A DNA stretch of 64,000 bases from Ralstonia sp. A12 (GTDB lineage: Bacteria > Pseudomonadota > Gammaproteobacteria > Burkholderiales > Burkholderiaceae). Under the pieces are notes generated by a model. That model made no database searches. It was not told the origin of the DNA and saw only the letters and a list, made by a program, of their open reading frames with translations. Location of the stretch: NCBI RefSeq assembly GCF_000801955.1, contig NZ_JSZO01000001.1, forward strand, positions 62,001 through 126,000. The letters are read 5' to 3'. Each line of letters begins with the position of its first letter. Position 1 is the stretch's first letter. A program made the position numbers and the translations under genes. Positions 28,332 through 64,000 of the stretch are shown piece by piece.

Positions 28332-29510
28332 TCAGTAAAGTGATTGCACTGCGTGCTGCGCTGCCACCCACTCCTCGTTGGTCGGCTCCACCGCTATACG
28401 AATGCGGCTAGTCGCTCTGGAGATGATCGCGGCATGCGCTTGGTTGGCTACGTCGTCCAAGTCGGCGCCCAAATAGCTGAGCGCGTGCACGACGCGCTCG
28501 CGCAGCGCGGCGTTGTGCTCACCAATGCCGGCCGTGAAGACCAGCAAGTCCAAACCACCGAGCACGGCCACCAAAGCGCCGATCTCGCGGACGATACGGC
28601 GCACGTAGAGCGCCAACGCCGCCTGCACGCGTGGGTTGTCAGCTTCATGCGGCAACAGGTCACGCGGGTCGGACGACAGCCCTGACACGCCGAGCAGCCC
28701 CGATTCGTGATACAGCACGTGCCCGACCTGTGCCGGGGAAAGATGCTCCGTTTCCATCAGGTAAAGCACCGCCCCGGGGTCCAGCGCTCCGCAGCGAGTG
28801 CCCATCATCAGGCCATCGAGCGCGGAGAAGCCCATGGTGGTGGCCACGCTGGTCAGCCCCTGCATGGCGCACAGGCTGGCACCGCTGCCAAGGTGCGCAA
28901 CGATGGTCCGGCCACGTGCAGCTTCGCCATGCCGCTCGGCAAGCGCGATCGACATGTACTCATACGACAGCCCGTGAAAGCCGTAACGCCGCAGCCCACG
29001 TTCCCATGCTGCGTAAGGCAACGGCAACATCATCTCGACCTGTGGCAGCGTGTGGTGGAACGCCGTGTCGAAGCACGCCACCTGCGGCACATCGGGCAGC
29101 GCGGACAGCAGCGCCTCGATAGCTTCCAGGGCGAATGGCTGGTGCAGCGGTGCAAGCGGGATGTAACTGCGCAGATCAGCCAGCACACCGGCATCCACAC
29201 GTACCGGCGCGAAGTACTTTGACCCGCCGTGCACCACCCGGTGGGCCACGGCAGTAAGCCGACGGCCGTCCAGCATCTGCTCGACACGCTGGCGAATGTG
29301 CAGCAGCGCGGCGTGATACGGCTGCGCGGCGTCAAGCTCCACCGCCTGCGTTGGCAACCCGGTTTCCGTCGCCACGGGGTGATCGGTGCCGATCCCCTCC
29401 ACTTTGCCGTTCCACACGGGTGTACGCGGCAGCGGGCGCAGTGTTGCATCGAACAGCGCAAACTTGATGCTCGATGACCCGCAGTTCAGTACGACGATGC
29501 AATCGTTCAT
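28332..29510 (-). CDS. ackA: Acetate kinase
   Basis: 392 residues, starting MNDCIVVLNCGSSSIKFALF, the ASKHA-fold N-terminus of acetate kinase. Other marks are AVAHRVVHGGSKYF, ACFDTAFHHTLP, RRYGFHGLSYEYM, HLGSGASLCA and FTAGIGEHNAALRERV. It interconverts acetyl phosphate + ADP with acetate + ATP. The start overlaps the stop of the phosphotransacetylase gene by 4 bp. It is the last gene of the eight-gene operon that begins with phaC; the pair yields ATP from acetyl-CoA when respiration is limited. Confidence 0.95.
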   Translation of the reverse strand: MNDCIVVLNCGSSSIKFALFDATLRPLPRTPVWNGKVEGIGTDHPVATETGLPTQAVELDAAQPYHAALLHIRQRVEQMLDGRRLTAVAHRVVHGGSKYFAPVRVDAGVLADLRSYIPLAPLHQPFALEAIEALLSALPDVPQVACFDTAFHHTLPQVEMMLPLPYAAWERGLRRYGFHGLSYEYMSIALAERHGEAARGRTIVAHLGSGASLCAMQGLTSVATTMGFSALDGLMMGTRCGALDPGAVLYLMETEHLSPAQVGHVLYHESGLLGVSGLSSDPRDLLPHEADNPRVQAALALYVRRIVREIGALVAVLGGLDLLVFTAGIGEHNAALRERVVHALSYLGADLDDVANQAHAAIISRATSRIRIAVEPTNEEWVAAQHAVQSLY

Positions 29511-30952
29511 GGCGGCAAGATGCGGTAACGGTGTGCCAGCAGCGTGGCGATGGCGCACGACGCGATGCGCGATTCGCGTGAATCGGCTCGGCTGGTCAGT
29601 ACGATGGGCACGCGTGCGCCGAGCACAATGCCGGCGCTGGCTGCCCCGCCCAGGTATTCCAACTGCTTGGCGAGCATGTTGCCGCTCTCCAGATCCGGCA
29701 CCACCAGCACATCGGCCTGCCCTGCTACCTCCGAGACGATACCCTTGATGCGCGCGGCAGCCGCCGAGACTGCATTGTCGAAGGCCAGTGGCCCGTCCAG
29801 CACTCCGCCCTCGATCTGGCCGCGGTCGGCCATCTTGCACAGCGCCGCTGCGTCAAGCGTGGCGGGCATCTGCGGATTCACCGTCTCAACGGCCGCGAGG
29901 ATTGCCACACGCGGCCGCTCCACGCCAATCGCATGGGCCAAGTCGATGGCGTTGCGGATGATGTCCGCCTTCTGATCCAAGGTCGGTGCAATGTTGATGG
30001 CGGCGTCCGTCACGATAAACGGGCGCGGATACGCAGGCGACTGCATCACAAAGCAATGGCTGATCCGGCGCTTGGTGCGCAGCCCCGCATCGGCACGCAC
30101 CACAGCGGCCATGAGCTCATCGGTATGCAGACTGCCTTTCATGAGCGCCTCTACCCTGCCCTGCGTCACAAGCTCTACGGCACGGGCTGCGGCGGCGTTG
30201 CTGTGCGGCACGTCTTCGATCTCGACGCCATTCAGGTTAAGCCCCGCTTCTGCTGCAACGCGCATCAGCTTGGCGCGCGGCGCAACCAGGCACGGCACGA
30301 TCAGGCCTTCAGCACGTGCGTCCAGCGCGGCCGACAGACTCAGCGCATCGCACGGGTGTACCACTGCCGTGCGGATCGCCCCCAGGGGCCGCACGTGGTC
30401 GAGCAGCCGGTGGATGCCATCGCCGCCGACTGTGATGCGCACGTCGGGCAGCGTGGTGCGCGGCCGCTCGATCCGCTCGGTGGGCGCGATGACCTCGGCC
30501 TCCCCCGAGATGGCGACCGTGCCGGTGTCGTTCGTGCAGGTACACGCCAGCTTGAGCCGCTTCTTGTCGTCTTCCTTGCTGGTCACCGTGACGCGAATGG
30601 TCAACGTATCGCCAATGCGTACCGGCGCGTGAAATTGCAGTGTCTGCCCAAGGTAGATCGTGCCCGGCCCCGGCAGGCGCGTGCCGAGCACGGCAGAAAT
30701 CAACGCACCGCCCAGCATGCCGTGAGCAATCACGCCATGAAAACGCGTGGACGCCGCAAACTCTGCATCCAGATGCTGCGGGTTGACGTCGCCCGACAGC
30801 ACGGCAAAGAGTTGAATATCCTCGGCTGTGAGCGTGCGCTGGATGGCTGCGCTTTCACCAACGACGATCTCGTCGAAGGTGCGGTTGCGCACCACGCTCA
30901 AGTCGCCGCCGGGTAGCGGTGCGGGTTGTGCAGACAGGTGGTCGGTCTTCAT
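29507..30952 (-). CDS. Bifunctional MaoC-like enoyl-CoA hydratase/phosphate acetyltransferase
   Basis: 481 residues in two domains. Residues about 20-150 are a MaoC/hot-dog dehydratase (FAVLSGDVNPQHLDAEFAA and FHGVIAHGMLGGALIS, with the D..N..H catalytic pattern of R-specific hydratases). Residues about 170-475 are a phosphotransacetylase/phosphotransbutyrylase domain (MKGSLHTDELMAAVV, FIVTDAAINIAPTL, GPLAFDNAVS). The fusion can link (R)-3-hydroxyacyl-CoA, the PHA monomer, with acyl phosphate and so with acetate kinase, whose gene overlaps by 4 bp. Which acyl group is used is unknown. Confidence 0.9.
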   Translation of the reverse strand: MKTDHLSAQPAPLPGGDLSVVRNRTFDEIVVGESAAIQRTLTAEDIQLFAVLSGDVNPQHLDAEFAASTRFHGVIAHGMLGGALISAVLGTRLPGPGTIYLGQTLQFHAPVRIGDTLTIRVTVTSKEDDKKRLKLACTCTNDTGTVAISGEAEVIAPTERIERPRTTLPDVRITVGGDGIHRLLDHVRPLGAIRTAVVHPCDALSLSAALDARAEGLIVPCLVAPRAKLMRVAAEAGLNLNGVEIEDVPHSNAAAARAVELVTQGRVEALMKGSLHTDELMAAVVRADAGLRTKRRISHCFVMQSPAYPRPFIVTDAAINIAPTLDQKADIIRNAIDLAHAIGVERPRVAILAAVETVNPQMPATLDAAALCKMADRGQIEGGVLDGPLAFDNAVSAAAARIKGIVSEVAGQADVLVVPDLESGNMLAKQLEYLGGAASAGIVLGARVPIVLTSRADSRESRIASCAIATLLAHRYRILPP

Positions 30953-30961
30953 GGGCGTTCC

Positions 30962-31471
30962 TTAGGAGGCTACCCTGGCTAGTTCGCCGTTACCCTTCCT
31001 GCGCGGTGGCACAGGGCTCTGTGGTGCGGCTTCCTGGCGGACAAACAGGTTGGTCGGTGCGCCAAACGTGCTCAGCATGTCCTGCAGCATCGTATGCGCC
31101 GGCATGGCATTGCGCGCCGCGCTCAACGCCTGTACCGAGGCTTGCTGCCATTCCAACACGGCACGCTGGTATTCGGTAGCAAAACTGGACTGGTTGGCGA
31201 TGGCCGTCTGCACCACGCCCTGCAGCATCGTCACTCCACGTTGGTTGGCTTGCCAGAAAGCACTGGGCAGCAGCGCCCCGAACGCCTGCCAGTTCTCCGC
31301 GCCCTGCAGATCGGCCAACGCGGATTCCGTGCGCGCAACGTCATCGGCCAACAACTGGGCACCGAGTTCAAACCAGCGTTGCCGCGCCGCCTTGAACAAG
31401 CCCAGCGTTTGCAGCCCGAGCGCAACCTGCGCCTTATAGAGTGCGAAGGGAAGATCGGTCGGTGTTTCCAT
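30962..31471 (-). CDS. Phasin family protein
   Basis: 169 residues, mostly amphipathic helix, without signal peptide. METPTDLPFALYKAQVALGLQTLGLFKAARQRWFEL and the WQAFGALLPSAFWQ segment resemble the phasin_2 family that coats PHA granules; the tail (PQSPVPPRRKGNG) is basic. It lies 9 bp before the MaoC-PTA gene and in the same operon as PHA synthase, which strengthens the call. A second phasin lies at 59.5 kb. Confidence 0.8.
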   Translation of the reverse strand: METPTDLPFALYKAQVALGLQTLGLFKAARQRWFELGAQLLADDVARTESALADLQGAENWQAFGALLPSAFWQANQRGVTMLQGVVQTAIANQSSFATEYQRAVLEWQQASVQALSAARNAMPAHTMLQDMLSTFGAPTNLFVRQEAAPQSPVPPRRKGNGELARVAS

Positions 31472-31480
31472 GTCGGCTCC

Positions 31481-32632
31481 TTAGGTCATCTGGCTGATGG
31501 TTTGACGAAAACGTGTCAATGACGCGACAAACAGCACGGCACCGATCCCGCAGATGGCCAGACATTGCGGCCACACCACAGACAGCCCCGCGCCCCGGTA
31601 AAGAATCGCTTGCGACGCCGATACAAAATGCGTGGTCGGCGCGGCCAGCATGATGTCTTGCACCAGCACGGGCATGCTCTCGCGCGGGGTGGTGCCGCCC
31701 GAGAGCAGTTGCAGCGGCAGCAGCACCAGAACCAGCAGCATGCCGAATTGCGGCATGGAACGTGCCACGGTCGCTAGAAAGATGCCCATGGAGGTGGTGG
31801 CAAACAGATGCAGCGCGGCCACCAGCATGAACAGCGAGATCGAGCCCTCGATCGGCACGTGGAGCGCACCTTGCACCACGCACAGCAGCGCCACCAGTGC
31901 GGCCAGCACCACCACCAGCCCCATCGACCACACCTTGGCCGTCATGATCTCGAACGGCGTGACGGGCATCACCAGCAGATGTTCGATGGTGCCGTGTTCG
32001 CGTTCACGGATGAGCGCGGCACCGGTCAGGATGATCGACAGCATCGTCACGTTGTTGATGATTTCCATCAATGAGCCGAACCAGGTCTGCTCAAGGTTGG
32101 GGTTGAAACGCATGCGCAGCACCAGGTCGACCGGCGCAGACGGCGCGGCGCGGTGGCGCTGCAGAAACTCGTTCACCTCGCCCGAGACGATCTGCTGAAT
32201 GTAGCCGTTACCGGTGAAGGCCTGGCTCATACGGGTAGCGTCGATGTTGAGCTGGATGGTCGGCGCACGCCCGGCCAGCACGTCGCGCTGGAAGTTGGGC
32301 GGAATGTCGAGCACGAACGTATAGCGCCCGCTGTCCATGCCCGCATCCATCTCGGTCAGCGGGATCAGCGCGGGCGTGCGGAAATGTGGCGGATAGAAGC
32401 TCGAAACGATACGCGCCGACAACGGCGAGCTGTCTTCATCCACGATGGCAATCGACGCGTTGTGCAGGCTCTCCGGCATGGCAGTGGCTGCCACGTAGAT
32501 CGACAGCGTGAAGGTGTAGGCGATCAGCACCAGCATCATCGGGTCACGCGCCAGGCTCCACAGCTCCTTAATGCCCAGGCGGAAGATATTGCTGAGGCGG
32601 GCAGACCGACGATCGGACAGGCGGCTTGGCAT
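31481..32632 (-). CDS. ABC-2 type transporter permease (YhhJ-like)
   Basis: 383 residues: an N-terminal membrane helix (DPMMLVLIAYTFTLSIYVAA), a periplasmic region of about 140 residues, and five C-terminal helices, the architecture of YhhJ/YbhR permeases. Family marks are IVDEDSSPLSARI, the LDIPPNFQRDVLAG block and EREHGTIEHLLVMPVTPFEI. It lies 9 bp after the RbbA-type gene and works with it and the HlyD protein as an ABC export system across the envelope. Substrate unknown. Confidence 0.87.
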   Translation of the reverse strand: MPSRLSDRRSARLSNIFRLGIKELWSLARDPMMLVLIAYTFTLSIYVAATAMPESLHNASIAIVDEDSSPLSARIVSSFYPPHFRTPALIPLTEMDAGMDSGRYTFVLDIPPNFQRDVLAGRAPTIQLNIDATRMSQAFTGNGYIQQIVSGEVNEFLQRHRAAPSAPVDLVLRMRFNPNLEQTWFGSLMEIINNVTMLSIILTGAALIREREHGTIEHLLVMPVTPFEIMTAKVWSMGLVVVLAALVALLCVVQGALHVPIEGSISLFMLVAALHLFATTSMGIFLATVARSMPQFGMLLVLVLLPLQLLSGGTTPRESMPVLVQDIMLAAPTTHFVSASQAILYRGAGLSVVWPQCLAICGIGAVLFVASLTRFRQTISQMT

Positions 32633-32641
32633 GACCGGCTC

Positions 32642-35437
32642 CTAGTGGTCCTGCTTGCGCAGCATCAGTAGCGTCGCGCCCAGGATGACCGGCACCGCAG
32701 CCAGCAACGGCCAGAACGCGCTGCCAAGTGCCCCCGCGTCCAGTGCCTTGCTGAACACGCCCCGGCTGATGGTCAGAAAGTGGGTGGCCGGATACACGTG
32801 CCCGATCAAGGCCCCCACCCCTTCCAGCGACGACACGGGATTGAGCAGCCCCGCAAACTGCACGCACGGAATGATGGTGCCGATCATGGTCACGAACATG
32901 GCCGCAATCTGGCTTTGCGTGAACGTTGATGCAAACAGCCCGAAGCCCGTCGAGCACGTCACGAAAATCAGCGCCCCCAGCGCGAGCGTCGCAAAGCTGC
33001 CCTTGATCGGCACACCGAACACCGTGACGGCCAGCACCGCCAGCAGCAGGAAGTTCAGCATGGCCAACACAATGTACGGCGCCTGCTTGCCCAGTACGAA
33101 TTCCGCCCGCGTAACCGGCGTGACGTAGAAATTGATGATGGAGCCCAGTTCCTTTTCGCGCACCACCGACAGCGCCGCCAGCATGGCGGGAATCATCATC
33201 AGCAGCATCGGGATCACGGCGGGCACCATGGCGGGCAGGCTTCTCACATCGGGGTTGTAGCGATAGCGCGTCTCGATGGTGCTGGGCACAGAAAGCCGCA
33301 GCCCCAGCCGGTGCACTGCGGCGTCCGCCAGCCAGAGCTGGTGGATGGCCTGCACGTAGCCGCGTACGGTTTCCGCGCGGGTGGGCATGGCGCCGTCTAC
33401 CCAGGCGCCGACCTGCACCGCCGCCCCGCGCTCCACATCACGCGCAAAGCCGGGCGGAATCTCTATCGCCAGCGACAGCTCGCCGCTGCGCATGCGGCGG
33501 TCTAACTCAGCGTAGTCGCGAATCGGTGGTTTTTCGATGAAATAGCGCGAACCGGCCAGGTTGAGCGTGTAGTCGCGCGAGAGCGCGGTCTGGTCTCGGT
33601 CGAGCACGGCGTAGGTGAGGTTCTCCACATCCAGGCTGATGCCGTATCCGATGATGAACATCAGGATGGCGGTGCCGAGCAAGGCCAGCGTGGCGCGCAC
33701 CGGGTCGCGGCGCAGCTCCAGTGCCTCACGCTGCGAATAGCTCAACGCGCGCGCAAAGCTGAAGTGGCGGCGGGCGGGCAGCTTGGCGGGCGTTTTGGCG
33801 GATGTTGCGTGCGCAGGCGTTGGCGCGGCAACCACATCAGCGCCGGCAACCGCCTCAGATGCCGCTTTGGAGGCTTCCTGCAGATAGGCGATGAATGCCT
33901 GCTCCAGCGTCTGCGTGCCGCGTGCGCGCACCAGCGCGGCGGGTGCGTCGCTCACCAGCACGCGACCGGCATGCATGAGCGAGATGCGGTCGCAGCGCTC
34001 GGCCTCGTTCATGAAGTGCGTGGAGATGAAGATGGTCACGCGGTCCTGCCGTGCTAGGTCGACCATCAGGCGCCAGAACATGTCGCGCGCGACCGGGTCG
34101 ACGCCGGAGGTCGGTTCATCCAAGATCAGCAGCTCTGGCTTGTGCACCATCGCCACAGCCAGCGACAGGCGCTGCCGCATGCCCAGCGGCAGGCTTTCGG
34201 GCAAGCTGTCGGCCACGTCCTGCAGCCCGAAGCGGGTGAGCATCTCCGCCGCGCGGGGCTGCACCTCGGGTTCAGGCACCTGGAACAGGCGCGCGTGCAG
34301 CACGAGGTTCTGGCGTACGGTCAACTCGCCGTACAACGAGAACGCCTGCGACATGTAGCCCACACGCCGGCGCGTGTCGATATCTTTCGGATCGACCGGA
34401 TGGCCGAACAGCCACGCTTGGCCCTCGCTGGCGGGCAGCAGGCCGGTGAGCATCTTCATGGTGGTCGACTTGCCGCAGCCGTTGGAGCCGAGAAAGCCGA
34501 AGATTTCTCCACGCCGGATACGGAAGTCGACGTGGTCGACCGCCACAAAATCGCCAAAGCGCATGGTCAGCCCGTTCGCCTGCACGGCCACCTCGTCTTC
34601 TGCACCGGCTACCAGCGGCGGCACGACCACGGCCTGGTGGCCCTGGCGCCGTGCCGGCGGCAGTAGCGCGATGAAGGCGGCCTCCAGAGATTCGGTGCCC
34701 GTGCGGCTGCGCAGGCTGGCCGGCGTGCCGGTGGCCAGTGCCTGCCCAGCATCCATGGCGACTAGCCAGTCAAAGCGCTCGGCCTCTTCCATGTAGGCGG
34801 TAGCCACCACCACGCTCATGCCCGGGCGCTCGGCCCGAATGCCGGCGATCAAATCCCAGAACTGGCTGCGCGAGAGCGGGTCGACGCCCGTGGTCGGTTC
34901 GTCGAGGATCAGCAGATCGGGGTCGTGGATCAATGCGCAGCACAGCGCCAGCTTCTGCTTCATGCCGCCCGACAGCTTGCCCGCCGGGCGTGAAAGGAAT
35001 GGCCGCAGGCCGGTGCTGGCCGTCAGCGCGTCAATGCGGCGACGGCGCTCGGCCGCGTCATGACCGAACAGGCGACCGAAGAACTGCAGGTTCTCCTCGA
35101 TCGACAGCGTGGGGTACAGGTTGCGCCCCAACCCTTGCGGCATGTAGGCGATGCGCGGGCCGACCGCGGCGCGCGCACGCCGATCCGACATGTCGCTGCC
35201 CAACACATGCACAGCGCCGTCCTGCAAGGCGCGGGCCCCGGCCACCAATGACAACAGGCTCGACTTGCCCACGCCGTCAGGGCCGATCAGCCCCACCATG
35301 CACCCGGCGGGCAGGTCGAGTGTGACGTCATCCAGCGCCAGCGTCTTGCGGTAGCGCAGGGTCACGCCAGCAAGGCTGACCACCGGCGGCACGAGCCGCG
35401 CATCCTGCATCGTGAGCAGGTCGGCAAACTGGGTCAC
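32642..35437 (-). CDS. RbbA/YhiH-like protein: two ABC ATPase domains fused to ABC-2 permease
   Basis: About 931 residues from a GTG overlapping the HlyD stop (GTGA). Domain order is ATPase 1 ([37 protein letters not shown]), ATPase 2 ([27 protein letters not shown]), then a membrane domain from about residue 570 with a periplasmic loop and five late helices. The second signature is degenerate (LPLGMRQRL) as in RbbA. E. coli RbbA (YhiH) has this layout beside yhhJ and yhiI, the same trio as here. A longer start is possible but would overlap HlyD further. Confidence 0.9.
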
Positions 35438-36510
35438 TGCGGAACCTTGATCGCCAGATTGGCCGGCCAATCAGCCTGCGCGTCGAGCTTGAGCCACGCC
35501 ATGCCGGGCAGACCGGTCTTCACCAGCTTCAGGTGCTTGCGCAGCAGATCACGGTCAATCTGTGCCTTGATACGGAACATCAGCTTCTGGCGCTCGCTGG
35601 CGGTTTCCACCGTCTTGGGCGTGAACTGCGCGGTGCTGGCGACAAAGGACACGCGTGCCGGAATCACGTACTGCGGCGCGGCGTCGAGCACGATGCGCAC
35701 CTCGCTGCCCATGGCAATTCGGCCTGCGTCCGTCTCCGGCACGAAGAAGGTCATGTAGACGTCTGACAGATCGACCAGATTGAGCAGTCGCCCGCCGCCG
35801 GCCAGCACCTCACCAGGCTGGGCAATGCGGTATTGCACACGGGCGTCCCGCGGGGCGGTCAGGGCGCTGTCGTCAATGTCGGCCTTGATGCGCAGTACCG
35901 TCGCGTCCGCCGCCTTGACGGTGGCATTGGCACCGGCCACCTGTGTGCGGGCCGAGGCCACCGCCGCCTGCGCCGCCTCGGCCTGCGCACGGGCCGCCAC
36001 CAGCGCGGCCTTGGCGCTGCGTACGCGGGCACGGTCGTCGTCCAGCTCTTGCATCGACGAGGCGCCTTCGTGCGACAGCGTTTCAGAACGCGTCAGCCGG
36101 CGTTGCGCGGCATCCAGATCGCTTTCGCGCAGCGCGATCTGCGCCAGCGCCGCCTGCCGGTCTGCCTCCCGCACCGCCACCTGGGCCTGTGCGCTCGCCA
36201 CGGCCGAGATGGACTGCTGCTGCCGCGCCTGGGCTTCATCGCGTTGCGCCTCCAGGGTCTGCACCTGCATGTGTGCGAGCGGCTGGCCGGCGTTCACGAA
36301 ATCGCCCTCTTCCACGAGGATGTCCTGTACGCGGCCGGGGAGCTTGGTGGCCACGTCGATCTCGGTGGCCTCGATACGGCCATTGCCGCTTGCAAAGCCC
36401 TTGCCGGGGCCGTCTTGTCGCAATGTCTTCCACGCAAACGCGCCACCGGCTGCCACCAGTGCGGCGGCGAGCAGTGCAATCCATCGCTGTCGGGGGGATA
36501 TCGTCATCAT
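35434..36510 (-). CDS. HlyD family periplasmic adaptor subunit (YhiI-like)
   Basis: 358 residues. One N-terminal membrane anchor ([18 protein letters not shown]), a half-lipoyl strand [20 protein letters not shown], a long coiled coil (about residues 90-210, Ala/Gln-rich heptads), then [18 protein letters not shown] and a beta-barrel. It links the inner-membrane ABC proteins to the outer-membrane NodT channel. It overlaps both neighbours by 4 bp, so nodT-hlyD-rbbA are translationally coupled. Confidence 0.9.
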
Positions 36511-46015: not shown

Positions 46016-46017
46016 GG

Positions 46018-54126: not shown

Positions 54127-54140
54127 TTGACGCGAGTCAA
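54127..54140. promoter_or_regulatory. FNR/ANR-type site upstream of the HPF-like gene
   Basis: TTGACGCGAGTCAA, with both half-sites fully complementary (TTGAC/GTCAA). A -10-like AAGAAT (54162-54167) begins 28.5 bp from the centre. The start codon is about 126 bp away, so a leader near 80 bases is predicted. Confidence 0.65.
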
Positions 54141-54259: not shown

Positions 54260-54607
54260 GTGCCATTGCCGATTGATATCTCGTTTGAAGACATACCGCA
54301 TTCCAAAGCCGTTGAAGAGTTTGTGACACATCAGGTCAGTCACCTTCACCGCATCTGCGGCCAGATCATGCGCTGCCGCGTCAGCCTCGCTCTGGGTGCG
54401 AAACATCAACAACAGGGCCGGCCGTTCAACGTGCATGTGGGCGTCACGATGCCTCGTCAAACGTATCTCTCCAGCAAGGCGTCGGATACGGACCCGTACG
54501 TCGCGCTTCGCGAAGCCTTTGCGCACGTGGAGCGCATAGTGGTTGAAACCGTCCGAAAACACCGACCAAGCGCTGACCAACAGACCGGCCTCACGGAAGA
54601 GGCATAG
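54260..54607 (+). CDS. Ribosome hibernation factor-like protein (HPF/RaiA family, short form)
   Basis: 115 residues from GTG, with ATGGAGT upstream. MPLPIDISFEDIPHSKAVEEFV begins the beta-alpha-beta-beta-beta-alpha fold of the S30EA family, with FNVHVGVTMPR and the DPYVALREAFAHVERIVVE helix following. Basic residues lie in the helices. There is no long C-terminal dimerisation domain. Such proteins bind the 30S subunit and silence ribosomes. The FNR-type dyad upstream suggests induction when oxygen falls. More divergent than the housekeeping copy. Confidence 0.8.
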   Translation: MPLPIDISFEDIPHSKAVEEFVTHQVSHLHRICGQIMRCRVSLALGAKHQQQGRPFNVHVGVTMPRQTYLSSKASDTDPYVALREAFAHVERIVVETVRKHRPSADQQTGLTEEA

Positions 54608-56040: not shown

Positions 56041-57078
56041 CTAGGTGGAGATGATGACCTTGAGCGCATGCGTTTCTCCCGCGTTGCGAAAGGTATCGTA
56101 GGCAGCAAGGATGTCGTCTAGCTTGAACCGGTGCGTGATGAGCTGCCCCGGCTGGAGTTTCCCAGCACGCACCGTCTTCAACAGCATGGGTGTGCTGACC
56201 GTATCGACCAGCCGCGTGGTGATGGCAATGTTCTGGCTCCACAATGTTTCCAGATGCAGATCCGCCTTCACGCCATGCACACCGATATTGGCGATCACAC
56301 CGCCCGGGCCGACCAACTCCTGGCAGAGCTCAAACGTAGCCGGCACGCCCACTGCCTCAATTGCGCAGTCGACGCCCGCGCCATCGGTCAGCCGCTTCAC
56401 GGCAGCCACTGCGTTCTCGCTCGAGACGTTGATGCAGGTGCTTGCACCCAGCGTGCTCGCCACCTCCAGCCGTGCGGCGTTGGTGTCGATCATGATGATC
56501 TGGCCGGGCGAATAGAACTGCGCGGTCAACAATGACGCCAGCCCGATCGGCCCCGCGCCGACGATCGCCACGGTGCTGCCCGGCTGCACCCGGCCGTTCA
56601 GCACACCGCATTCGAAGCCGGTGGGAAAGATGTCCGACAGCATGACCAGCGCTTCTTCATCAACGCCGGGCGGCAATTTGTAGAGACTGGTTTCCGCATG
56701 GGGGATACGGACGTACTCCGCCTGCACACCGTCGATGCGATGACCGAGAATCCAGCCGCCGCTCTCGCAATGGGAGTACATGCCGCGCCGGCAGTTGGCG
56801 CATTTCCCGCAGGAGGAGATGCACGAGATCAGCACATGATCGCCGGGCTTGAGCGACGTGACGGCCGCCCCGACAGACTCGACCACACCAACGCCTTCAT
56901 GACCAAGCGTGCGGCCCGGCTCACAGGTCGGAACGTCGCCCTTGATGATGTGCAGATCAGTACCGCAGATCGTGGTCAACGTCACGCGTACCACCGCGTC
57001 ACCGGGTGCCTGCAACTCAGGCTTCGGTTTGTCCGCTAGCGAAATCACTCCCGGGCCTTCATAGACCAGCGCTTTCAT
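56041..57078 (-). CDS. Zinc-dependent alcohol dehydrogenase
   Basis: 345 residues from MKALVYEGPGVISLADKPKP. Catalytic zinc ligands: Cys in TTICGTDLHI and GHEGVG; structural zinc: CGKCANCRRGMYSHC; NAD fold: VAIVGAGPIGLASLL with acidic residue in MIDTNAARLEVA. This medium-chain family includes ethanol- and isopropanol-type dehydrogenases. It probably regenerates NAD+ by reducing an aldehyde or ketone. The upstream FNR-type site and -10 TAGCAT fit oxygen control. A remnant of a close relative lies at 52 kb. Confidence 0.92.
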   Translation of the reverse strand: MKALVYEGPGVISLADKPKPELQAPGDAVVRVTLTTICGTDLHIIKGDVPTCEPGRTLGHEGVGVVESVGAAVTSLKPGDHVLISCISSCGKCANCRRGMYSHCESGGWILGHRIDGVQAEYVRIPHAETSLYKLPPGVDEEALVMLSDIFPTGFECGVLNGRVQPGSTVAIVGAGPIGLASLLTAQFYSPGQIIMIDTNAARLEVASTLGASTCINVSSENAVAAVKRLTDGAGVDCAIEAVGVPATFELCQELVGPGGVIANIGVHGVKADLHLETLWSQNIAITTRLVDTVSTPMLLKTVRAGKLQPGQLITHRFKLDDILAAYDTFRNAGETHALKVIIST

Positions 57079-57133
57079 GGAAATCACCCAAGAAACTGAT
57101 GATTTCATGCTAGGCAACGGTCCTGCCTGTACA

Positions 57134-57147
57134 TTGATCTGCATCAG
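57134..57147. promoter_or_regulatory. FNR/ANR-type site between the alcohol dehydrogenase and kinase genes
   Basis: TTGATCTGCATCAG, one base from the perfect TTGAT-N4-ATCAA. It is centred between two divergent genes. -10-like boxes lie about 28.5-29.5 bp on both sides: TAGCAT (57107-57112, minus) and GATATT (57170-57175, plus). One site could thus drive both genes. Confidence 0.72.
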
Positions 57148-57194: not shown

Positions 57195-58763
57195 ATGCCC
57201 ACCACCGAGCAACAAGACCCTACCCTCCACGCCCCGTATGCCGAGGCGCTACCCGCGTGCATGCTCGATGTGCAAGCGTACCCACACCCTGCGGCAGACC
57301 TACGGATGATTGAGACCCATCTTTCGTGGGTATTCCTGGCCGGCGATTTCGCTTACAAAGTCCGCAAACCGGTCGCGCTCGATTTTGTGGATTTCTCCTC
57401 TCCCGCCGCACGGCGTACGGACTGCGATGTGGAACTGCAGCTCAACCGCCGGCTTGCGCCTGACGTCTATCTTGGCGTCGTGCCAATCTCGCGCGATCCG
57501 CTGACGGGCGCCGTTCAGGTAAATGGGAAAGGCGAGCCCATCGAATACGCCGTCTGCATGCGACGGTTCCATCAGCAGGACGTGCTGCGCGCGATGGCGC
57601 TCGACCGACGCCTCCGCTCTCAAACGCTCGATCCGCTGGCTGACCTGCTTGCAGACTTCCACCGCGCAGCGCCCGCTGCAGACCCGAACACCGACTATGG
57701 AACGCCGGCAAGCATCCGGCGCACGCTTGAGGACTGCGCGGCCGGAGTCATCGCGTTAAACACAGAATCGCAGCAGACGTTGGCAACCGTCTGCCTGCTG
57801 CGCAAGCATGCAGACCGGTTGGAGAACGCTTTCGCGTCACGCCGGCGCACCGGACATATTCGCGAATGCCATGGCGACCTCCACCTTGGCAACATCGCCC
57901 TGGTACAAGACAAGCCGACACCGTTCGACTGCCTGGAGTTTTCAGCGCCATTGCGATGGATCGACACCATGTACGACGTCGCATTCCTGTTCATGGATCT
58001 CCATGCCGTGGGCTTGGCGGGACTGGCGTACCGGTTCACCAACCGTTACCTCGAGCGTTGTGGAGACTACAGCGGGCTGGCGCTCCTGCCCTTCTATGCA
58101 GCCATGCGGGCCCTGGTGCGCGCTCGCGTACTGCTGGAGCGAGCACACCAACTGGCGCACGCGCCCCAACTGTCCGCTACGTATCGGGATGAGGCCCAGA
58201 GGTTGCTCGCCCTGTCACGAAGCCTGCTCGACCGGAACGATGGTTGCATCATCCTCATGCATGGCCTGTCGGGCAGCGGGAAATCGACCGTGGCCGCACA
58301 ACTTGCAGAAACAGAGTGCATGGTCCGCGTACGCTCGGATGCCGAGCGCAAGCGCCGAAGCGACATCAGCACGCTCCGCCGCTACACGCCTTGCGCGATC
58401 AATCACACCTACCGCCGGCTCGCGGCCATCTGCAAGATGGGTGTTGGCGCTGGATTGCCGATGATCGCCGACGCCACGTTCCTGGCAGATAGCCAGCGCA
58501 AACGGTTCTTCTCGTTGGCGCTGCGACTTGGCGTGCCAGTGGCGATCATCGACTGCGTAGCTGCCCCCCACATCTTGCGTGCACGTATCCAAGCAAGACT
58601 CCGCGCCGGTCGGGATGCCTCTGAAGCCGACCTGTCGGTGTTGGCTACCCAGATTGCCACGCAAGAACCACTGACTGCGGAAGAACGTGCCCATGTCATC
58701 TCGAGCGACGGCCCTCCGCTGCTGCTCAAGGCTAAGCAATTGCGGATGATCCGTTCCCAATAA
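57195..58763 (+). CDS. Aminoglycoside-phosphotransferase-like domain fused to P-loop kinase
   Basis: About 522 residues from MPTTEQQDPTLHAP, with GGAGG 8 bases upstream. Residues about 30-340 are a protein-kinase-like (APH) domain: WVFLAGDFAYKVRKPVALDF, the HGDLHLGNIALV catalytic loop and FDCLEF in place of DFG-like residues. Residues about 345-520 are a small-molecule kinase with Walker A in MHGLSGSGKSTVAAQL, like gluconate or zeta-toxin kinases. The same fusion is common in proteobacterial stress loci; substrates are not established. Divergent from the alcohol dehydrogenase. Confidence 0.87.
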   Translation: MPTTEQQDPTLHAPYAEALPACMLDVQAYPHPAADLRMIETHLSWVFLAGDFAYKVRKPVALDFVDFSSPAARRTDCDVELQLNRRLAPDVYLGVVPISRDPLTGAVQVNGKGEPIEYAVCMRRFHQQDVLRAMALDRRLRSQTLDPLADLLADFHRAAPAADPNTDYGTPASIRRTLEDCAAGVIALNTESQQTLATVCLLRKHADRLENAFASRRRTGHIRECHGDLHLGNIALVQDKPTPFDCLEFSAPLRWIDTMYDVAFLFMDLHAVGLAGLAYRFTNRYLERCGDYSGLALLPFYAAMRALVRARVLLERAHQLAHAPQLSATYRDEAQRLLALSRSLLDRNDGCIILMHGLSGSGKSTVAAQLAETECMVRVRSDAERKRRSDISTLRRYTPCAINHTYRRLAAICKMGVGAGLPMIADATFLADSQRKRFFSLALRLGVPVAIIDCVAAPHILRARIQARLRAGRDASEADLSVLATQIATQEPLTAEERAHVISSDGPPLLLKAKQLRMIRSQ

Positions 58764-59134: not shown

Positions 59135-59250
59135 CTCTTGCTCCCATAGGGAATCCACGATGAATCGTTCAATCAAAGCCCTCCAAGCCTGCGGTTTTCG
59201 TTAAGGCCTGAAGGCAATCAGAAGAATAGTGAACCGCCTGGGTTCCTCGT

Positions 59251-59264
59251 TGACTGAGGTCAAG
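59251..59264. promoter_or_regulatory. FNR/ANR-type site upstream of the repeat-protein gene
   Basis: TTGACTGAGGTCAA, with complementary half-sites TTGAC/GTCAA. On the minus strand TATTCT lies about 28 bp from the centre, so it probably drives the 12-residue-repeat gene with a leader near 80-90 bases. Confidence 0.62.
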
Positions 59265-59534: not shown

Positions 59535-60026
59535 ATGCAGCAACCTATTGATGTGACCTGCAACCTGGCATCTGCAGCAATGCGTGACATGGGTCGCAAC
59601 GCCGAATTCCTTGTCGAAGCGCAGATCGAGTCCCTGCGCTTGCGTCTCAAGATCGCAGAGGCAACGCTGGAAGACCTACACGAGATGGAGCACACGCTGG
59701 GCAGCGTGCCCGACTGGTCGTCCTTGGCGACAACGCAGAACCTGTTCATGAAGATGCAGTCAAGCCATGGCGCCGCGGCCGTAAAGTCGTGGGTCGACTT
59801 CGTCAACAACCTGCAAGCGGCATATCTCCGCCAGTTGACGGATTGGAACGACCAGATGCAGAGCCCAGCGGGACAAGGATCCTCGGCGCAATTGTTTGCT
59901 GCATCCGCCGATTCGCTGCGAGCGTTCTTCAACAGCTTCAATGTCGCGAATGTCCCCAACTCCGAAGCTGTGAGAAGGGTTGCCCCACGCACCACCGCAG
60001 AGGCAAACAAGGCACATGCCGCCTAG
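59535..60026 (+). CDS. Phasin family protein
   Basis: 163 residues from MQQPIDVTCNLASAAMRDMG, with GGAGA upstream. The all-helical phasin pattern is clear: EAQIESLRLRLKIAEATLED, WSSLATTQNLFMKMQSSHG, VNNLQAAYLRQLTDWNDQMQ and LRAFFNSFN. It binds the surface of PHA granules and links this end of the locus to the phaC operon. A rho-independent terminator follows 58 bp after the stop. Confidence 0.85.
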   Translation: MQQPIDVTCNLASAAMRDMGRNAEFLVEAQIESLRLRLKIAEATLEDLHEMEHTLGSVPDWSSLATTQNLFMKMQSSHGAAAVKSWVDFVNNLQAAYLRQLTDWNDQMQSPAGQGSSAQLFAASADSLRAFFNSFNVANVPNSEAVRRVAPRTTAEANKAHAA

Positions 60027-60137: not shown

Positions 60138-60821
60138 ATGAATGCCGAAACCCACCCCCTGGCCATGGACATCGTGACCGATGGCCAGGTGCTGCCAGGT
60201 CACCTGATTTGCCCAAGCAATGCCATCGGGCTGGTGATCTTTGCGCATGGCAGCGGCAGCTCCCAATGGAGCCCGCGCAACAAATACGTTGCCGATCAAC
60301 TCAACGCATCCGGGCTGGGCACGTTCCTGTTTGATCTGTTGACTGCCGAGGAGGCCGCACACGCCTCCTACCGCTTCGACATCCACCTGCTTGCGCGCCG
60401 CCTGCGCGCAGCCACGCACGCCGTTGGCGATATTGCCCGCAAACACAAGCTGCGCCTGGGATACTTCGGGGCCAGCACTGGCGCTGCCGCTGCCGTTCAA
60501 GCTGCAGCGACACCGGGCGATCTGTATCGGATTGACGCCGTGGTCAGCCGCGGCGGGCGCCCGGATCTGGCCGGCCCGCATGCGCTGGCGCAGCTTGCAT
60601 CCCCCACCCTGCTGATCGTGGGTGGCGCCGATCTGGACGTCCTTGACCTCAACAAACAAGCCCACAGCGAGATGCGATGCGTAAAGGCCCTCGAGACAGT
60701 GCCCCACGCGACGCATCTGTTTGAAGAGCCTGGTGCACTCGAACATGTCGCGGAGTTGGCACGCGCCTGGTTCGTACAGTATCTCGGCGGGAACGAACAA
60801 CCCCGCCCGCAAGCGAGGTAA
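60138..60821 (+). CDS. Dienelactone-hydrolase-like alpha/beta hydrolase
   Basis: 227 residues. Fold marks: VIFAHGSGSSQWSPRNKYVA (oxyanion region), nucleophile elbow GYFGASTGAAAAV, the acid strand TLLIVGGADLDVLDLN and histidine in TVPHATHLFEE. This subgroup lies in stress loci beside a phosphoribosyltransferase, and I recall the two as a single fused protein in mycobacteria. Substrate unknown. The stop is three bases before the GTG of the phosphoribosyltransferase, so they are cotranscribed. Confidence 0.85.
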   Translation: MNAETHPLAMDIVTDGQVLPGHLICPSNAIGLVIFAHGSGSSQWSPRNKYVADQLNASGLGTFLFDLLTAEEAAHASYRFDIHLLARRLRAATHAVGDIARKHKLRLGYFGASTGAAAAVQAAATPGDLYRIDAVVSRGGRPDLAGPHALAQLASPTLLIVGGADLDVLDLNKQAHSEMRCVKALETVPHATHLFEEPGALEHVAELARAWFVQYLGGNEQPRPQAR

Positions 60822-60824
60822 ACC

Positions 60825-61478
60825 GTGCGATTCAAAGATCGATTGAACGCGGCACAACTGCTTGCGCTCGCGCTCGACAAATACCGGGGCAGTCATCCTC
60901 TGGTGCTCGCCATCCCACGAGGGGCTACCCCCATGGGCCAGTTCATCGCCGCGGCGCTGGACGGTGAACTGGATGTCGTTCTCGTTCGCAAGCTGCGTGC
61001 CCCCTTCAACTCCGAACTGGCCGTCGGAGCGGTTGAGGAAAGCGGCTGGACCTATGTAGCGCCACATGCCGAGCGCGTGGCCGCCGACACCACCTATCTT
61101 GAGGAAGAACGGGCCCAGCAAATGGATGTCATTCGGCGGCGGCGAGCGCTCTATACGCCGCACCGCGGCCCCTGCGACGTTCAGGGGCGCGTCGTGATCG
61201 TGGTCGATGACGGCTTGGCAACGGGCGCGTCCATGAGGGCAGCATTGCATGCCGTGCGCCAGCGCCAACCAAAATGGCTGGTCTGCGCGGTCCCGGTGGC
61301 TGCGCCGGATAGCCTGGAGAACATTCTCCCCTTGGCCGACGAGGTCGTCTGCCTCTATGCACCGCCGGCCTTCCGCACGGTTGGGGTGTACTACGACGCT
61401 TTTCCGCAAGTCGAAGATGCTCAGGTGCGTGCGGCGCTGCATGCCACACGACCCAGCGATAGCCCGCAGCGGCACTGA
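60825..61478 (+). CDS. Type I phosphoribosyltransferase-like protein
   Basis: 217 residues from GTG. The PRPP-binding loop VVIVVDDGLATGASM is complete. N-terminal features HPLVLAIPRGATPMGQF and DVVLVRKLRAPFNSELAVGAV, with the E..R..Q helix VIRRRRALY, match the DUF/PRT group linked to dienelactone hydrolase proteins. It probably transfers a phosphoribosyl group or regulates through PRPP binding; the base is not known. With the PRPP synthetase-like and AMP phosphorylase-like genes it makes a third ribose-phosphate gene in the locus. Confidence 0.85.
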   Translation: MRFKDRLNAAQLLALALDKYRGSHPLVLAIPRGATPMGQFIAAALDGELDVVLVRKLRAPFNSELAVGAVEESGWTYVAPHAERVAADTTYLEEERAQQMDVIRRRRALYTPHRGPCDVQGRVVIVVDDGLATGASMRAALHAVRQRQPKWLVCAVPVAAPDSLENILPLADEVVCLYAPPAFRTVGVYYDAFPQVEDAQVRAALHATRPSDSPQRH

Positions 61479-61614: not shown

Positions 61615-63084
61615 TCAGCCCGGCGGTTCCGCCCTGCCGGCCAATGCAGCGCCGCGCCAACCTCCGCCCAAGGCAAGGAACAACGCCACAGTGTCCTGCA
61701 GCCGTTGCGCCCGCACTTGAACGGTGCCGAGCACCGCCTGCTGATATTGCAGATCGGCGCTCAGCACTTGAAGGTAGCTGGCTACGCCCGCGCGGTAGCC
61801 GGCATTGATCTCATCCAGCGCGGCGCTCGCTGCCGCCTGCTCGCGCAGTTGCGCATCGAGTTGAATCGCATCGTGCTCTAGCGCGCGCAGCACATCCGCC
61901 ACCTGCTGGAAGGAAGCGAGCACCACTTGCCGGTAGTCCGCATCCGCGGCCTGCAGGGCTTGCTTTGCTGCGCCGCGCCGGTAGTACAAAGTGCCTCCCT
62001 CGAACAACGGTGCGAACAGGCTGGCCCCGATACTCCACGCGCCTGCCTGAGCGCCAAACAGGTCGGCGCTGCGGTTGCCCATGCGCGCGTAGTCTGCGCT
62101 GAGGGTAAGGCTTGGCAGCATCGCGGCCGTTGCGACGCCGACATCCGCGGTGGCTTGATGCAAACGCGCTTGGGCGGCCAGGACATCCGGCCGCTGCCGC
62201 ACTAGCTCGGAAGGGACAAGGCTGGGCAAATCGGCCGGCAGCCCAAGGCTGCTGAGGCCAACATTCTTCGTCTCGGCCTGCGCCGGAAAGCGCCCCATCA
62301 GCACGGCCTCCAGGTGCGCTGCCTGGTCGCGCTTCTGCTCCAGCGGTGGTAGCGAAGCTTCCAGCGCGGCCAACTGAGTGATCAGGCTGAGTTCGCTGGA
62401 ATGCGCCATCACCCCGGCGTCAACCTGGGCGTGCGCGATGTCGACCTGTTCGTGCACCACCGCAATCAAGCTGCGGGTCGTGTCGATCTGCGCGGTATAG
62501 GCCGCGCGCGCGATCACGGCGTTGACGAGGTTGCCGGTCAAGGTGAGGTACGCAGCGGCAACCGCATAGCGCTGGCCTTCTGCCTGGGCGGCCAAGGATT
62601 CAACCGTGCGCCGGCTGCCACCAAAAATGTCGAGCGCGTAGCTGATCGAGGGCCCGAGCGTCCACAACGTGAAAAGACTCGGCGCCCCCATCTGGCCAAG
62701 CCTTGCAGGCACGACAGCCTGGCGCGACACATCGGCCGAGGCCGTCACCTGTGGGTAGAACACGCCGGCGCCAGCCCGCAGCAGGTCTTGCGCCGCGCGC
62801 AAATTGGCCTCGGCCTGTTGCAGCGTGGGGTTGGCCGTGATGGCCGACTCCATGACGTTGTCCAGCGTCGGGCTGCCAAACGCATGCCACCAATTGGAGG
62901 ATACGGGTGCAGCAGTAAATTTCTGGGCAACGCCGTCCACCAGGATGGACCCGGCAGGATCACCGTCATGGAGATAGCGGTCAACGTTTGGCGCGGCGGG
63001 TTCCCGGAAGTCCGGCCCCACGGCACAGCCCCCGGCGGCCAGCACGATCGCAGCCAAACACGCTGCCCGGCACACGGCCTTCAT
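61615..63084 (-). CDS. NodT family outer-membrane efflux lipoprotein (second copy)
   Basis: About 489 residues; I take the ATG that overlaps the HlyD stop by one base. Lipobox LAAGGC follows a short signal peptide. OEP-fold features are LQQAEANLRAAQDLLRAG, YALDIFGGSRRTVESLAAQ, QRPDVLAAQARLHQAT and FEGGTLYYRRGAAKQ. It forms the outer-membrane channel for the HlyD-type pump at the right edge. Clearly different in sequence from the NodT in the phaC operon. Confidence 0.9.
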   Translation of the reverse strand: MKAVCRAACLAAIVLAAGGCAVGPDFREPAAPNVDRYLHDGDPAGSILVDGVAQKFTAAPVSSNWWHAFGSPTLDNVMESAITANPTLQQAEANLRAAQDLLRAGAGVFYPQVTASADVSRQAVVPARLGQMGAPSLFTLWTLGPSISYALDIFGGSRRTVESLAAQAEGQRYAVAAAYLTLTGNLVNAVIARAAYTAQIDTTRSLIAVVHEQVDIAHAQVDAGVMAHSSELSLITQLAALEASLPPLEQKRDQAAHLEAVLMGRFPAQAETKNVGLSSLGLPADLPSLVPSELVRQRPDVLAAQARLHQATADVGVATAAMLPSLTLSADYARMGNRSADLFGAQAGAWSIGASLFAPLFEGGTLYYRRGAAKQALQAADADYRQVVLASFQQVADVLRALEHDAIQLDAQLREQAAASAALDEINAGYRAGVASYLQVLSADLQYQQAVLGTVQVRAQRLQDTVALFLALGGGWRGAALAGRAEPPG

Positions 63085-64000
63085 CACGAGGCTCCCTGCA
63101 GGTAGACGTCGACCAGTTGCCCCGGATAGACCGTGAGCTTGTCCGGCTGTTTGAACCGGAAGAGCAAGGGCAGCACGCGCACATCCACCCGCTCCGAGCG
63201 CTGATCGGAAAGCTCCACCTTGGGCGAGACATAGGGTTGTACCCGCACGAACTCCAGTGGCACGCTCACATTGGTACCCCGGAAGAACATGCGCGCCTGC
63301 ACCGTGCTGGACGGCAGGCGGTGCACCAGGATTTCGTCCACGTACACGCGCACCGCCAACTTGCTCTGGCCTGAGCTCATCATGACCAGCGGGACATAGC
63401 CCCGCGTATAGGCGTCATACGTGCCTTGCGGCGACACATAGGCCCCGGGCGAGGTATTGATCGACATCACGATGCCATCCGTCGGCGCACGCACGGTGTA
63501 TTTGTTGAGCAAAGCGCTGGCCGCGGCCGCGCCTTTCAGCAACGCGTCGCGCTGCTTCTGCAGGGTGCGGATGTCGTAGCTCCATGCGCCCGCTCGCGTG
63601 AGTTCATACTGGCGCTGTGCGACGGTCAGATTGCCATGGGCCACGCGTACGGCATTGGCGGCATTGTCCATCGCATCACGGCTGACGGCCTTTGGGTTGA
63701 GGCGAGCGGCCGCCTCGAGCTTGTCCAGTTGGTCCTGCACCGTGCGCAGGCTTGCATCCGCCGCTGTCACCTGCGCGCGCGTGACTTCCAGCGTCTCTTT
63801 GCGCGGCTGCGCCAGCAGCGCGTTCAACTGCGCGTCAACGGAGTCCGCCTGCGACTGCTGTTGCGCCGTCAGGGCACGCTGCACAGAATCTTCGATCTGG
63901 ATCAGTGCATCGCCCTGCTTCACCGCCTGCCCCTCCTGGACAAGAATGCGCGCGACGGTGCCTGAGACCTCGGAATACAAGTTCAGATTGGCGCCACTGG
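63084..64000 (-). CDS. HlyD family secretion protein (5' end beyond window)
   Basis: At least 305 residues, frame open to the window edge. It begins in a lipoyl half (NLYSEVSGTVARILVQEGQ), continues with a coiled coil (about 130 residues), then TVRAPTDGIVMSINTSPG and a beta-barrel (SKLAVRVYVDEILVHRLP), and ends with a C-terminal domain of strands. It lies upstream of and coupled with NodT. The inner-membrane partner must lie beyond 64 kb; it could be MFS (EmrA-type) or ABC. Confidence 0.88.
   Translation of the reverse strand, partial: SGANLNLYSEVSGTVARILVQEGQAVKQGDALIQIEDSVQRALTAQQQSQADSVDAQLNALLAQPRKETLEVTRAQVTAADASLRTVQDQLDKLEAAARLNPKAVSRDAMDNAANAVRVAHGNLTVAQRQYELTRAGAWSYDIRTLQKQRDALLKGAAAASALLNKYTVRAPTDGIVMSINTSPGAYVSPQGTYDAYTRGYVPLVMMSSGQSKLAVRVYVDEILVHRLPSSTVQARMFFRGTNVSVPLEFVRVQPYVSPKVELSDQRSERVDVRVLPLLFRFKQPDKLTVYPGQLVDVYLQGAS

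Follow-up and report, generated by a model that had tools for sequence, protein, structure and literature searches.

The closest described relative of the DNA studied here is the low-oxygen-activated (lxa) locus of Burkholderia. Gene lists exist for B. cenocepacia J2315 (BCAM0275A-BCAM0323) and B. contaminans (PMC4981469, PMC6127331), and the passages of the literature available to us describe lxa as induced at low oxygen and required for anoxic persistence in B. cenocepacia (PMC6127331, PMC9104464). According to these passages, lxa contains six usp genes, for universal stress proteins, and DUF1488 is the family of BCAM0277 (PMC6127331); it is a genomic island with a patchy distribution in the B. 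cepacia complex (PMC4981469, PMC6829993), and strain H111 lacks it. The same passages do not call gene order a defining property of lxa. We analyzed a stretch of Ralstonia sp. A12 DNA, hereafter the window, that is 64,000 nucleotides long (bases 62001-126000 of contig C1, NZ_JSZO01000001.1, which has 957,543 bases; genome of 6.10 Mb in 60 contigs). An earlier note, written from the letters alone, had placed a Ralstonia version of lxa in this window from position 28332 onward. We consider it probable that this locus is the Ralstonia counterpart of Burkholderia lxa and that it would serve as an FNR-switched island for anoxic survival. Within partial literature coverage, our searches turned up no description of such a locus in Ralstonia.

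The reading was extended to 96 kb on the scale of the window. Genes were called with a small home-made codon-usage script, with which starts and small open reading frames (e.g., g50, g57, g74) are uncertain; families were assigned by Pfam and NCBIfam profile searches with the models' own cut-offs, and operons are presumed from gene spacing. The window's end at 64 kb proved to be no boundary. The locus comprises 51 gene calls (g29-g79) from about 28.3 to 77.0 kb (28332-76992, ~49 kb), its limits being drawn from gene content. On the left it is flanked by MFS/AraC/LysR genes, and on the right by acyl-CoA synthetase and Crp genes and, judged by eye, biotin genes. Its GC content is 62.9% versus 64.3% in a 400 kb control, and its GC3 is 0.74 versus 0.80 in the flanks. 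A tRNA gene was sought as a sign of an island boundary and none lies in the window; no integrase occurs among the genes scanned.

Orthologs shared with lxa

We compared the locus with 40-kb stretches from six Burkholderia-type genomes of one genus (G297, G011, G239, G210, G141, G162), a label inferred partly from collinearity with the published lxa list. Reciprocity was assessed locus against locus, with whole-genome checks for FNR and AckA only. The genes discussed in this section are as follows.

28332..29510, minus strand: AckA, acetate kinase (PF00871; TIGR00016 over cut-off), last gene of the presumed phaC-to-ackA operon
29507..30952, minus strand: MaoC-phosphotransacetylase (Pta) fusion (NF006045 over cut-off)
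30962..31471, minus strand: small protein, earlier called phasin
31481..38018, minus strand: RbbA-type efflux genes for permease, RbbA, HlyD and OEP (RbbA NF033858 1582 bits, cut-off 1050)
38019..39767, minus strand: polyhydroxyalkanoate (PHA) synthase PhaC with GYCLGG box (PF07167, PhaC_N)
55326..55976, minus strand: nitroreductase (PF00881), a 63% reciprocal best match in 2 of 6 Burkholderia-type loci
56041..57108, minus strand: Zn-dependent alcohol dehydrogenase (ADH), a 75-76% reciprocal best match in 6 of 6
61615..64000, minus strand: start of a MacB-type efflux operon (OEP, HlyD), with ATPase and permease beyond the window, to 66048
71713-72552, past the window: double Usp with two Usp domains (family search)
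72589-73089, past the window: Usp (family search)
75445-76455, past the window: second Zn-ADH (family search)
76537-76992, past the window: third Usp gene (family search)

Reciprocal searches, which the earlier note had named as the test of its lxa claim, gave 15 to 21 reciprocal best matches per locus among the 51 Ralstonia genes (G297 21, G011 20, G239 19, G210 18, G141 16, G162 15), and 27 in the union of the six loci. Some of these matches were weak (26-37%). Named records gave 16 in B. stagnalis, 9 on a B. pyrrocinia plasmid and 17 on a conjugative plasmid of Paraburkholderia graminis, and G051 and G170, which belong to further genera, had 12 and 11. A one-way search only was made for G093, which had essentially just the beta-CASP metallo-beta-lactamase (MBL), and for G216, which had a partial set.

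The strongest pairs were those of the ADH, RbbA and its permease, the MacB-type permease and Pta. PhaC matched reciprocally in all six loci (52-54%), the MaoC-Pta fusion in three (66-68% to lxa Pta, with 481 amino acids here versus 330-345 there), the RbbA-type efflux genes in five (53-73%; RbbA 70-71%, permease 72-73%) and the MacB-type efflux genes in three (49-73%; permease 72-73%). By position and family, the Zn-ADH at 56041..57108 is the counterpart of BCAM0299. PhaC scored 537.9 bits against the class I model TIGR01838, under its cut-off of 622.65, and is therefore an atypical PHA synthase; its gene heads a run of eight same-strand genes that ends at ackA, with gaps of at most 10 bp. The earlier note saw no usp gene and guessed that such genes lie past 64 kb. 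This guess was borne out by the three genes (four domains) listed above, all 7.7-13 kb beyond the window's end. Also beyond 64 kb are BON proteins, a DksA/TraR-like, a flavodoxin-like and a CBS protein, and an MgtC/DUF4010 protein.

The FNR-type regulator of the locus (68481-69281) was compared with the three or four paralogs in each Burkholderia-type genome, and the copy embedded in lxa was the best match in all six. In the reverse check, a search of the Ralstonia genome with the lxa-type FNR of P. graminis had the locus copy as its top hit, at 264.9 bits, with the next at 200.4. AckA is encoded by one gene (E<=1e-15) in each of the six genomes, and lies within lxa in three of them (56-58%).

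Several results weigh against the lxa reading. Twenty-four of the 51 genes, including those for AMP phosphorylase, PRPP synthetase, PolX, HPF, rhomboid and phosphoribosyltransferase, had no reciprocal match in the 40-kb stretches of the six loci. Gene order is not conserved: the Burkholderia-type loci follow the published order and the Ralstonia locus differs. G297, for example, reads DUF1488, Hsp20, nitroreductase, BON, ADH, FNR, response regulator, Usp, AckA, Usp, PhaC, ADH, MBL, MacB-type efflux, LRAT protein and RbbA-type efflux, which agrees with the published lxa list except for the nitroreductase, where that list shows none. The lead of the lxa-embedded FNR over its paralogs is small, 3-14 bits (265.8 vs 262.5 at the least, 275.8 vs 261.6 at the most), and AckA lies outside lxa in the other three genomes (49-50%). 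The MBL was tried as an orthology marker and set aside, because lxa copies (51-53%) and plasmid-cassette copies (50-54%) are equally close. Thus, of the gene-by-gene and synteny comparison that the earlier note had suggested, the orthologs of the characteristic set were found and a shared order was not.

That order is not shared and that many genes differ would also fit convergent assembly, in which stress genes of common families were gathered independently under FNR, giving a locus lxa-like in its work and not by descent; partial kits of the same families do occur on plasmids of other classes (Sphingobium pSH1, Leisingera; see below). We judge this unlikely. The identities of the efflux genes, ADH and Pta, together with the preference for the lxa-embedded FNR, argue for shared ancestry of many parts, and the status of the locus as an lxa relative is supported.

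Predicted control by oxygen

Low-oxygen control of the locus is predicted because it contains an FNR-type regulator and a FixL-like PAS kinase, and because FNR boxes are enriched and conserved in it. The elements concerned are listed here.

66198-68224, past the window: NarL-type response regulator and PAS sensor kinase (g65/g66; family searches)
68481-69281, past the window: FNR-type regulator (g67; NF008365 216.3 bits, cut-off 228)
39832..39845, no strand: FNR box ~71 bp upstream of phaC, 1 mismatch
47889..47902, no strand: FNR-like box upstream of hsp20, 2 mismatches
54127..54140, no strand: FNR-type palindrome TTGACGCGAGTCAA, 1 of 12 genome matches to TTGAYNNNNRTCAA; TTGATCGCGATCAA in G137
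57134..57147, no strand: FNR box between the divergent ADH and kinase-fusion genes, 1 mismatch
59250..59263, no strand: FNR-type palindrome TTGACTGAGGTCAA (pattern search)

The regulator has the cysteine motifs CGNCMMHWAC (from 44) and VCSMPF (from 145), with four cluster cysteines present, a pattern that we take to match that of E. coli FNR. An alignment of the kinase's PAS domain to FixL (E 6e-15) shows a conserved histidine in the aligned segment, which is presumably where FixL binds haem.

The pattern TTGAYNNNNRTCAA occurs 12 times in the genome (6.1 Mb), and three of these matches lie within the 49-kb locus (binomial 1.1e-4). We then counted boxes in promoter regions, allowing at most two mismatches to TTGATN4ATCAA, with twenty 20-kb stretches of the same genome as the control. 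Locus promoters held 12 sites in 3,217 bp versus 8 in 28,568 bp of control, a 13x density (Fisher 6.5e-8, positions taken as independent), and four scrambled palindromes gave 0, 0, 1 and 0 sites in the locus. FNR-like sites at 73172 and 73219 were left out of the promoter count because they are overlapped by g74. In nine Burkholderia-type and Paraburkholderia loci there were 94 boxes in 33.6 kb of promoters versus 1-6 for six scrambled motifs.

Conservation was read in up to seven other Ralstonia loci, and the counts include the window. The best-conserved box is that of hsp20: seven of the eight loci have it, at -81 to -84. Boxes also recur before phaC (-66 to -71, 3/3 readable loci), ADH (-32, 4/4 readable loci) and the last Usp gene (-77/-78, 4/4), and before the HPF gene in four of four, at two different spacings. 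Close sites that fit no rule lie before the double Usp gene in G137 and before the Mg ATPase gene in G077. No site within two mismatches lies directly upstream of AckA or Pta in the window's locus; if the runs are operons, the phaC and hsp20 boxes would serve AckA/Pta and the module genes described below.

There are points on the other side. The regulator falls short of the cut-off of the NCBI Fnr model, and similarity to FixL is no proof of haem binding. The reversed pattern has 7 matches in the genome vs 12 for the forward one, and promoters of the right flank also contain two-mismatch sites (3 in 1,318 bp), whereas those of the left flank contain none (1,544 bp). Several genes of the window's locus have no box with at most two mismatches before them: those for FNR itself, the response regulator, the second ADH, and the BON, DksA-like and flavodoxin-like proteins. 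Finally, the whole lxa locus is expressed in air in B. contaminans, according to the part of PMC4981469 available to us. From lxa of B. cenocepacia we infer that the Ralstonia locus would be induced at low oxygen and would have a role in anoxic survival.

Elsewhere in the genome, a second FNR-type gene (G000:C1:428264-428941) has exact FNR palindromes 5-9 kb away (434306 and 437118), possibly marking a separate oxygen-controlled cluster.

The nucleotide module and its relatives elsewhere

Within the run headed by hsp20, and under its box, sit three genes that we call the nucleotide module: those for an AMP-phosphorylase-like enzyme, a phosphoribosyl pyrophosphate (PRPP) synthetase and the beta-CASP MBL. 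The run reads hsp20-MBL-PRPP synthetase-DUF1488-AMP phosphorylase-Mg ATPase, with gaps of up to 87 bp.

47392..47814, minus strand: Hsp20 chaperone (PF00011), first gene of the run
46018..47376, minus strand: beta-CASP MBL RNase with HAHIDH (PF10996, PF07521); module
45053..46066, minus strand: archaeal-type PRPP synthetase (NF005537 over cut-off; best structure 1u9y); module
44720..44998, minus strand: DUF1488 protein (PF07369)
43125..44699, minus strand: AMP-phosphorylase-like enzyme with GGLPGNRT motif (TIGR02645 over cut-off); module
40494..43037, minus strand: Mg2+ P-type ATPase (TIGR01524 over cut-off), last gene of the run

The AMP-phosphorylase-like protein has 4ga5 (E 6e-98) and 4ga4 (E 3e-95) as its best solved structures, and scores 469.5 bits against AMP_phos TIGR03327, under the equivalog cut-off of 535. 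The PRPP synthetase keeps its catalytic motifs (RQD, DPHLH, KKTR, DDIISTG). The best structure for the beta-CASP protein is the RNase TTHA0252. Its nearest NCBIfam model is that of the type VII CRISPR Cas14 RNase (379 bits, cut-off 800). The best match to its gene is 94%, in Ralstonia sp. ASV6, and its top 11 of 33 relatives (88-94%) are 8 Ralstonia, 2 Burkholderiaceae and 1 Candidatus Wolfebacteria metagenome-assembled genome (MAG).

In the Burkholderia-type stretches the three genes are not side by side, the beta-CASP gene being the only one found, and AMP phosphorylase had no match at E<=1e-40 in the six whole genomes. No paper on the three-gene module was found, in partial literature coverage. 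We favour a role in AMP removal, in which phosphorolysis would pull adenylate kinase toward ATP and PRPP would permit later recovery of adenine; a fuller route from RNA to acetate is possible and thinly supported.

We surveyed 16 Ralstonia genomes, the window's included, and read seven relatives more fully. The response regulator was present at >=87% in all 16 and the AMP-phosphorylase-like gene at >=81% in 15, G158 (88% complete) having only a 61% copy. The two genes lie 10-61 kb apart in all 13 genomes that have both on one contig. Gene content around them is variable: the 40 kb of G113 hold little besides the AMP-phosphorylase-to-Hsp20 block and two adjoining small genes, and G024 holds the block plus weaker matches. 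In G113, G024 and G067 the response regulator is outside the stretches read. Another AMP-phosphorylase-like and beta-CASP pair (61-62% and 50-52%), resembling the plasmid cassettes, was seen in five genomes (G058:C97, G121:C3, G158:C122, G137:C3, G113:C25). The Candidatus Wolfebacteria MAG contig (L020, NVTD01000041.1) carries a block that matches the hsp20-to-AMP-phosphorylase genes of Ralstonia at 64-89% identity, and is probably mis-binned.

Outside these genomes, the module occurs as a three-gene run on plasmids of Variovorax, Paracoccus, Pontibacter, Methylophaga, Phenylobacterium, Acidovorax, Roseibium and Ruegeria, and in one run in all 12 Legionella genome loci (L038-L047, L049, L050). 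On a Legionella adelaidensis plasmid the MBL occurs with ADHs and the other two module genes are missing, and the Martelella, Shinella and Sphingobium regions have fewer than three annotated module genes. Nine Escherichia plasmid records were left out of this survey. Copper or heavy-metal genes stand near the module in 9 of 11 plasmid regions with an AMP-phosphorylase gene (outside Cupriavidus and Legionella), the exceptions being Paracoccus, with a metal-binding-domain protein only, and Sphingobium. These neighbours count against an anoxic role, since oxygen may be irrelevant there, and would suit a metal (copper) stress island, in which the module and the P-type ATPases would respond to damage by metals, with oxygen control in a secondary role. 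For the Ralstonia locus we find this very improbable: its ATPase is of the Mg2+ type, the scan of its genes turned up neither a copper oxidase nor a heavy-metal ATPase or MerR regulator, and FNR boxes are enriched.

Two plasmids suggest that lxa-like kits move between classes. On Sphingobium pSH1, genes for AckA, MaoC-Pta and a PhaC homologue adjoin (48, 59 and 55% to the Ralstonia proteins), and there are also two ADHs, three Usp genes, AMP phosphorylase, PRPP synthetase, Mg2+ ATPase and phosphoketolase. A 60-kb Leisingera plasmid holds a P-type ATPase, Usps, a kinase fusion, RbbA, MBL and SulP. In neither of these islands do FNR boxes lie densely: with at most one mismatch allowed, there is 1 in 43 kb for Sphingobium and 3 in 31 kb for Leisingera (scrambled, 0).

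Phosphoketolase lies near the AMP-phosphorylase gene in three loci outside Burkholderiales, namely Paracoccus (adjoining), Sphingobium (8-9 kb off) and a gammaproteobacterial MAG (26% identity). It was not seen near the module in the plasmid regions of Pontibacter, Methylophaga, Phenylobacterium, Martelella, Shinella, Roseibium and Ruegeria, nor in the 12 Legionella loci or the Variovorax and Acidovorax regions. Because the flanks searched spanned 9-20 kb, or less where a record ended, and the gene tables of PLSDB have gaps, the link of phosphoketolase to an energy role is suggestive at most.

Remaining genes, mechanism and known parallels

The other assigned genes of the locus lie between the hsp20 run and the MacB-type operon.

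48996..49589, minus strand: rhomboid protease (PF01694)
49783..50403, minus strand: dihaem cytochrome c with two CASCH motifs (PF00034)
52302..54050, plus strand: DNA polymerase X, PolX (NF006375 over cut-off)
54260..54607, plus strand: HPF/S30AE-like ribosome hibernation factor (PF02482)
57195..58763, plus strand: APH and AAA kinase fusion (PF01636, PF13671)
59535..60026, plus strand: small protein, earlier called phasin, with an FNR-like box ~56 bp upstream
60138..61478, plus strand: alpha/beta hydrolase (weak match) and phosphoribosyltransferase (family search)

Pfam and NCBIfam families agreed with 17 of 18 earlier gene labels. The phasin identity was dropped for the proteins at 30962-31471 and 59535-60026, for which a search down to E<=1 gave no hit to any phasin family. 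As for the cytochromes that the earlier note had named, one is a clear dihaem cytochrome c, and the second frame has only one CMACH motif and no family match. That frame (g49) and the adjoining g48 (50442-51781) resemble one outer-membrane-type protein split by a frameshift, and the pair was not found in the stretches read of seven other Ralstonia loci. A small protein at 58832-59176 contains repeated DPYTEGA units and has an FNR-type palindrome upstream. A 150-amino-acid protein at 39893-40345 matches no family, has an FNR-like box 84 bp upstream, and is present in the stretches of 1 of 7 relatives.

With AckA, Pta, PhaC and two ADHs present, the locus could be one for PHA and fermentation, handling overflow metabolism at low oxygen and not survival. 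Fnr proteins of Herbaspirillum directly activate polyhydroxybutyrate (PHB), phasin and adhA genes, according to the part of PMC5934665 available to us. Many genes of the locus serve stress, ribosome, ion or nucleotide functions, and we therefore regard this alternative as distinctly improbable.

Under the survival reading, a fall in oxygen would activate the FNR protein through its [4Fe-4S] cluster and turn the units on together, with the kinase/regulator pair possibly tuning the switch. Pta and AckA would make ATP from acetyl-CoA without respiration, PHA would hold carbon and reductant, and the Zn-ADHs and nitroreductase would dispose of electrons. HPF, Hsp20, Usp and rhomboid may protect ribosomes and proteins, and the Mg2+ ATPase, efflux and BON proteins may keep ions and envelope in order. 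The least certain step is that of the module, in which RNase, AMP phosphorylase and PRPP synthetase would drain AMP and so pull adenylate kinase to ATP, AMP being rebuilt from base and PRPP when oxygen returns.

A broader proposal joins these parts. On this view, a single mobile kit for anoxic survival, spread over chromosomes and plasmids of Alpha-, Beta- and Gammaproteobacteria, may have been assembled in two ways, as lxa and as the Ralstonia locus, and would parallel the DosR regulon in function. The module would then be a new nucleotide-energy device, turning RNA or AMP into base and ribose bisphosphate, raising energy charge and supplying phosphoketolase and acetate kinase with pentose phosphate, so that ATP could be made in the absence of oxygen. 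We offer this tentatively, and doubt that all of it will hold. Within the literature searched, and as far as our searches go, three things are new: the lxa counterpart in Ralstonia, the presence and conservation of FNR boxes in it, and the nucleotide module together with the related cassettes on plasmids. With the counterpart as a second, independent case, the parts common to both lineages (FNR, Usp, efflux, ADH, acetyl-phosphate, PHA, MBL) can be told from those of one lineage, and FNR stands out as the likely switch. Through the extra module, a loosely defined stress cluster yields a hypothesis on nucleotide energy metabolism that can be tested. Since Ralstonia is able to persist in water systems poor in nutrients, a genus-wide anoxic-survival locus, if true, would be of practical interest.

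Compared with lxa, the Ralstonia locus has in common the Usp set, Hsp20, DUF1488, BON, FNR with a response regulator, AckA, PHA polymerase, Pta, two Zn-ADHs, the beta-CASP MBL, RbbA-type efflux and MacB-type efflux (the last in the B. contaminans list); the cation ATPase is shared by name only. Dense FNR boxes are likewise found in lxa relatives. The Ralstonia locus differs in its order and in the fusion of MaoC to Pta, and it adds AMP phosphorylase, PRPP synthetase, PolX, HPF, rhomboid and phosphoribosyltransferase, whereas the SulP, PhbB and PfkB of lxa were not seen among the scanned Ralstonia locus genes.

The module resembles the archaeal AMP phosphorylase pathway in having an AMP-phosphorylase-type enzyme, best matched by 4ga5, near an archaeal-type PRPP synthetase. 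It differs in that RuBisCO and R15P isomerase were not seen among the scanned Ralstonia locus genes, in its partner, a beta-CASP RNase, and in not reaching the AMP_phos cut-off.

The DosR regulon of mycobacteria is similar by function. The portions of its gene lists seen (PMC4090907, PMC5309233) include Usps, alpha-crystallin, nitroreductases, a cation ATPase, Rv2626c (the CBS protein here), a ribosome factor, a phosphoribosyltransferase, a storage-lipid synthase and a response regulator with sensor kinases. This likeness is drawn from function lists, with one structure match, that of the CBS protein to Rv2626c (E 7e-9), which ranks below other CBS proteins. Unlike DosR, the Ralstonia locus has FNR boxes, PHA in place of triacylglycerol, and one block in place of nine. 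For lxa itself, a likeness to DosR is already noted in the part of PMC6127331 available to us.

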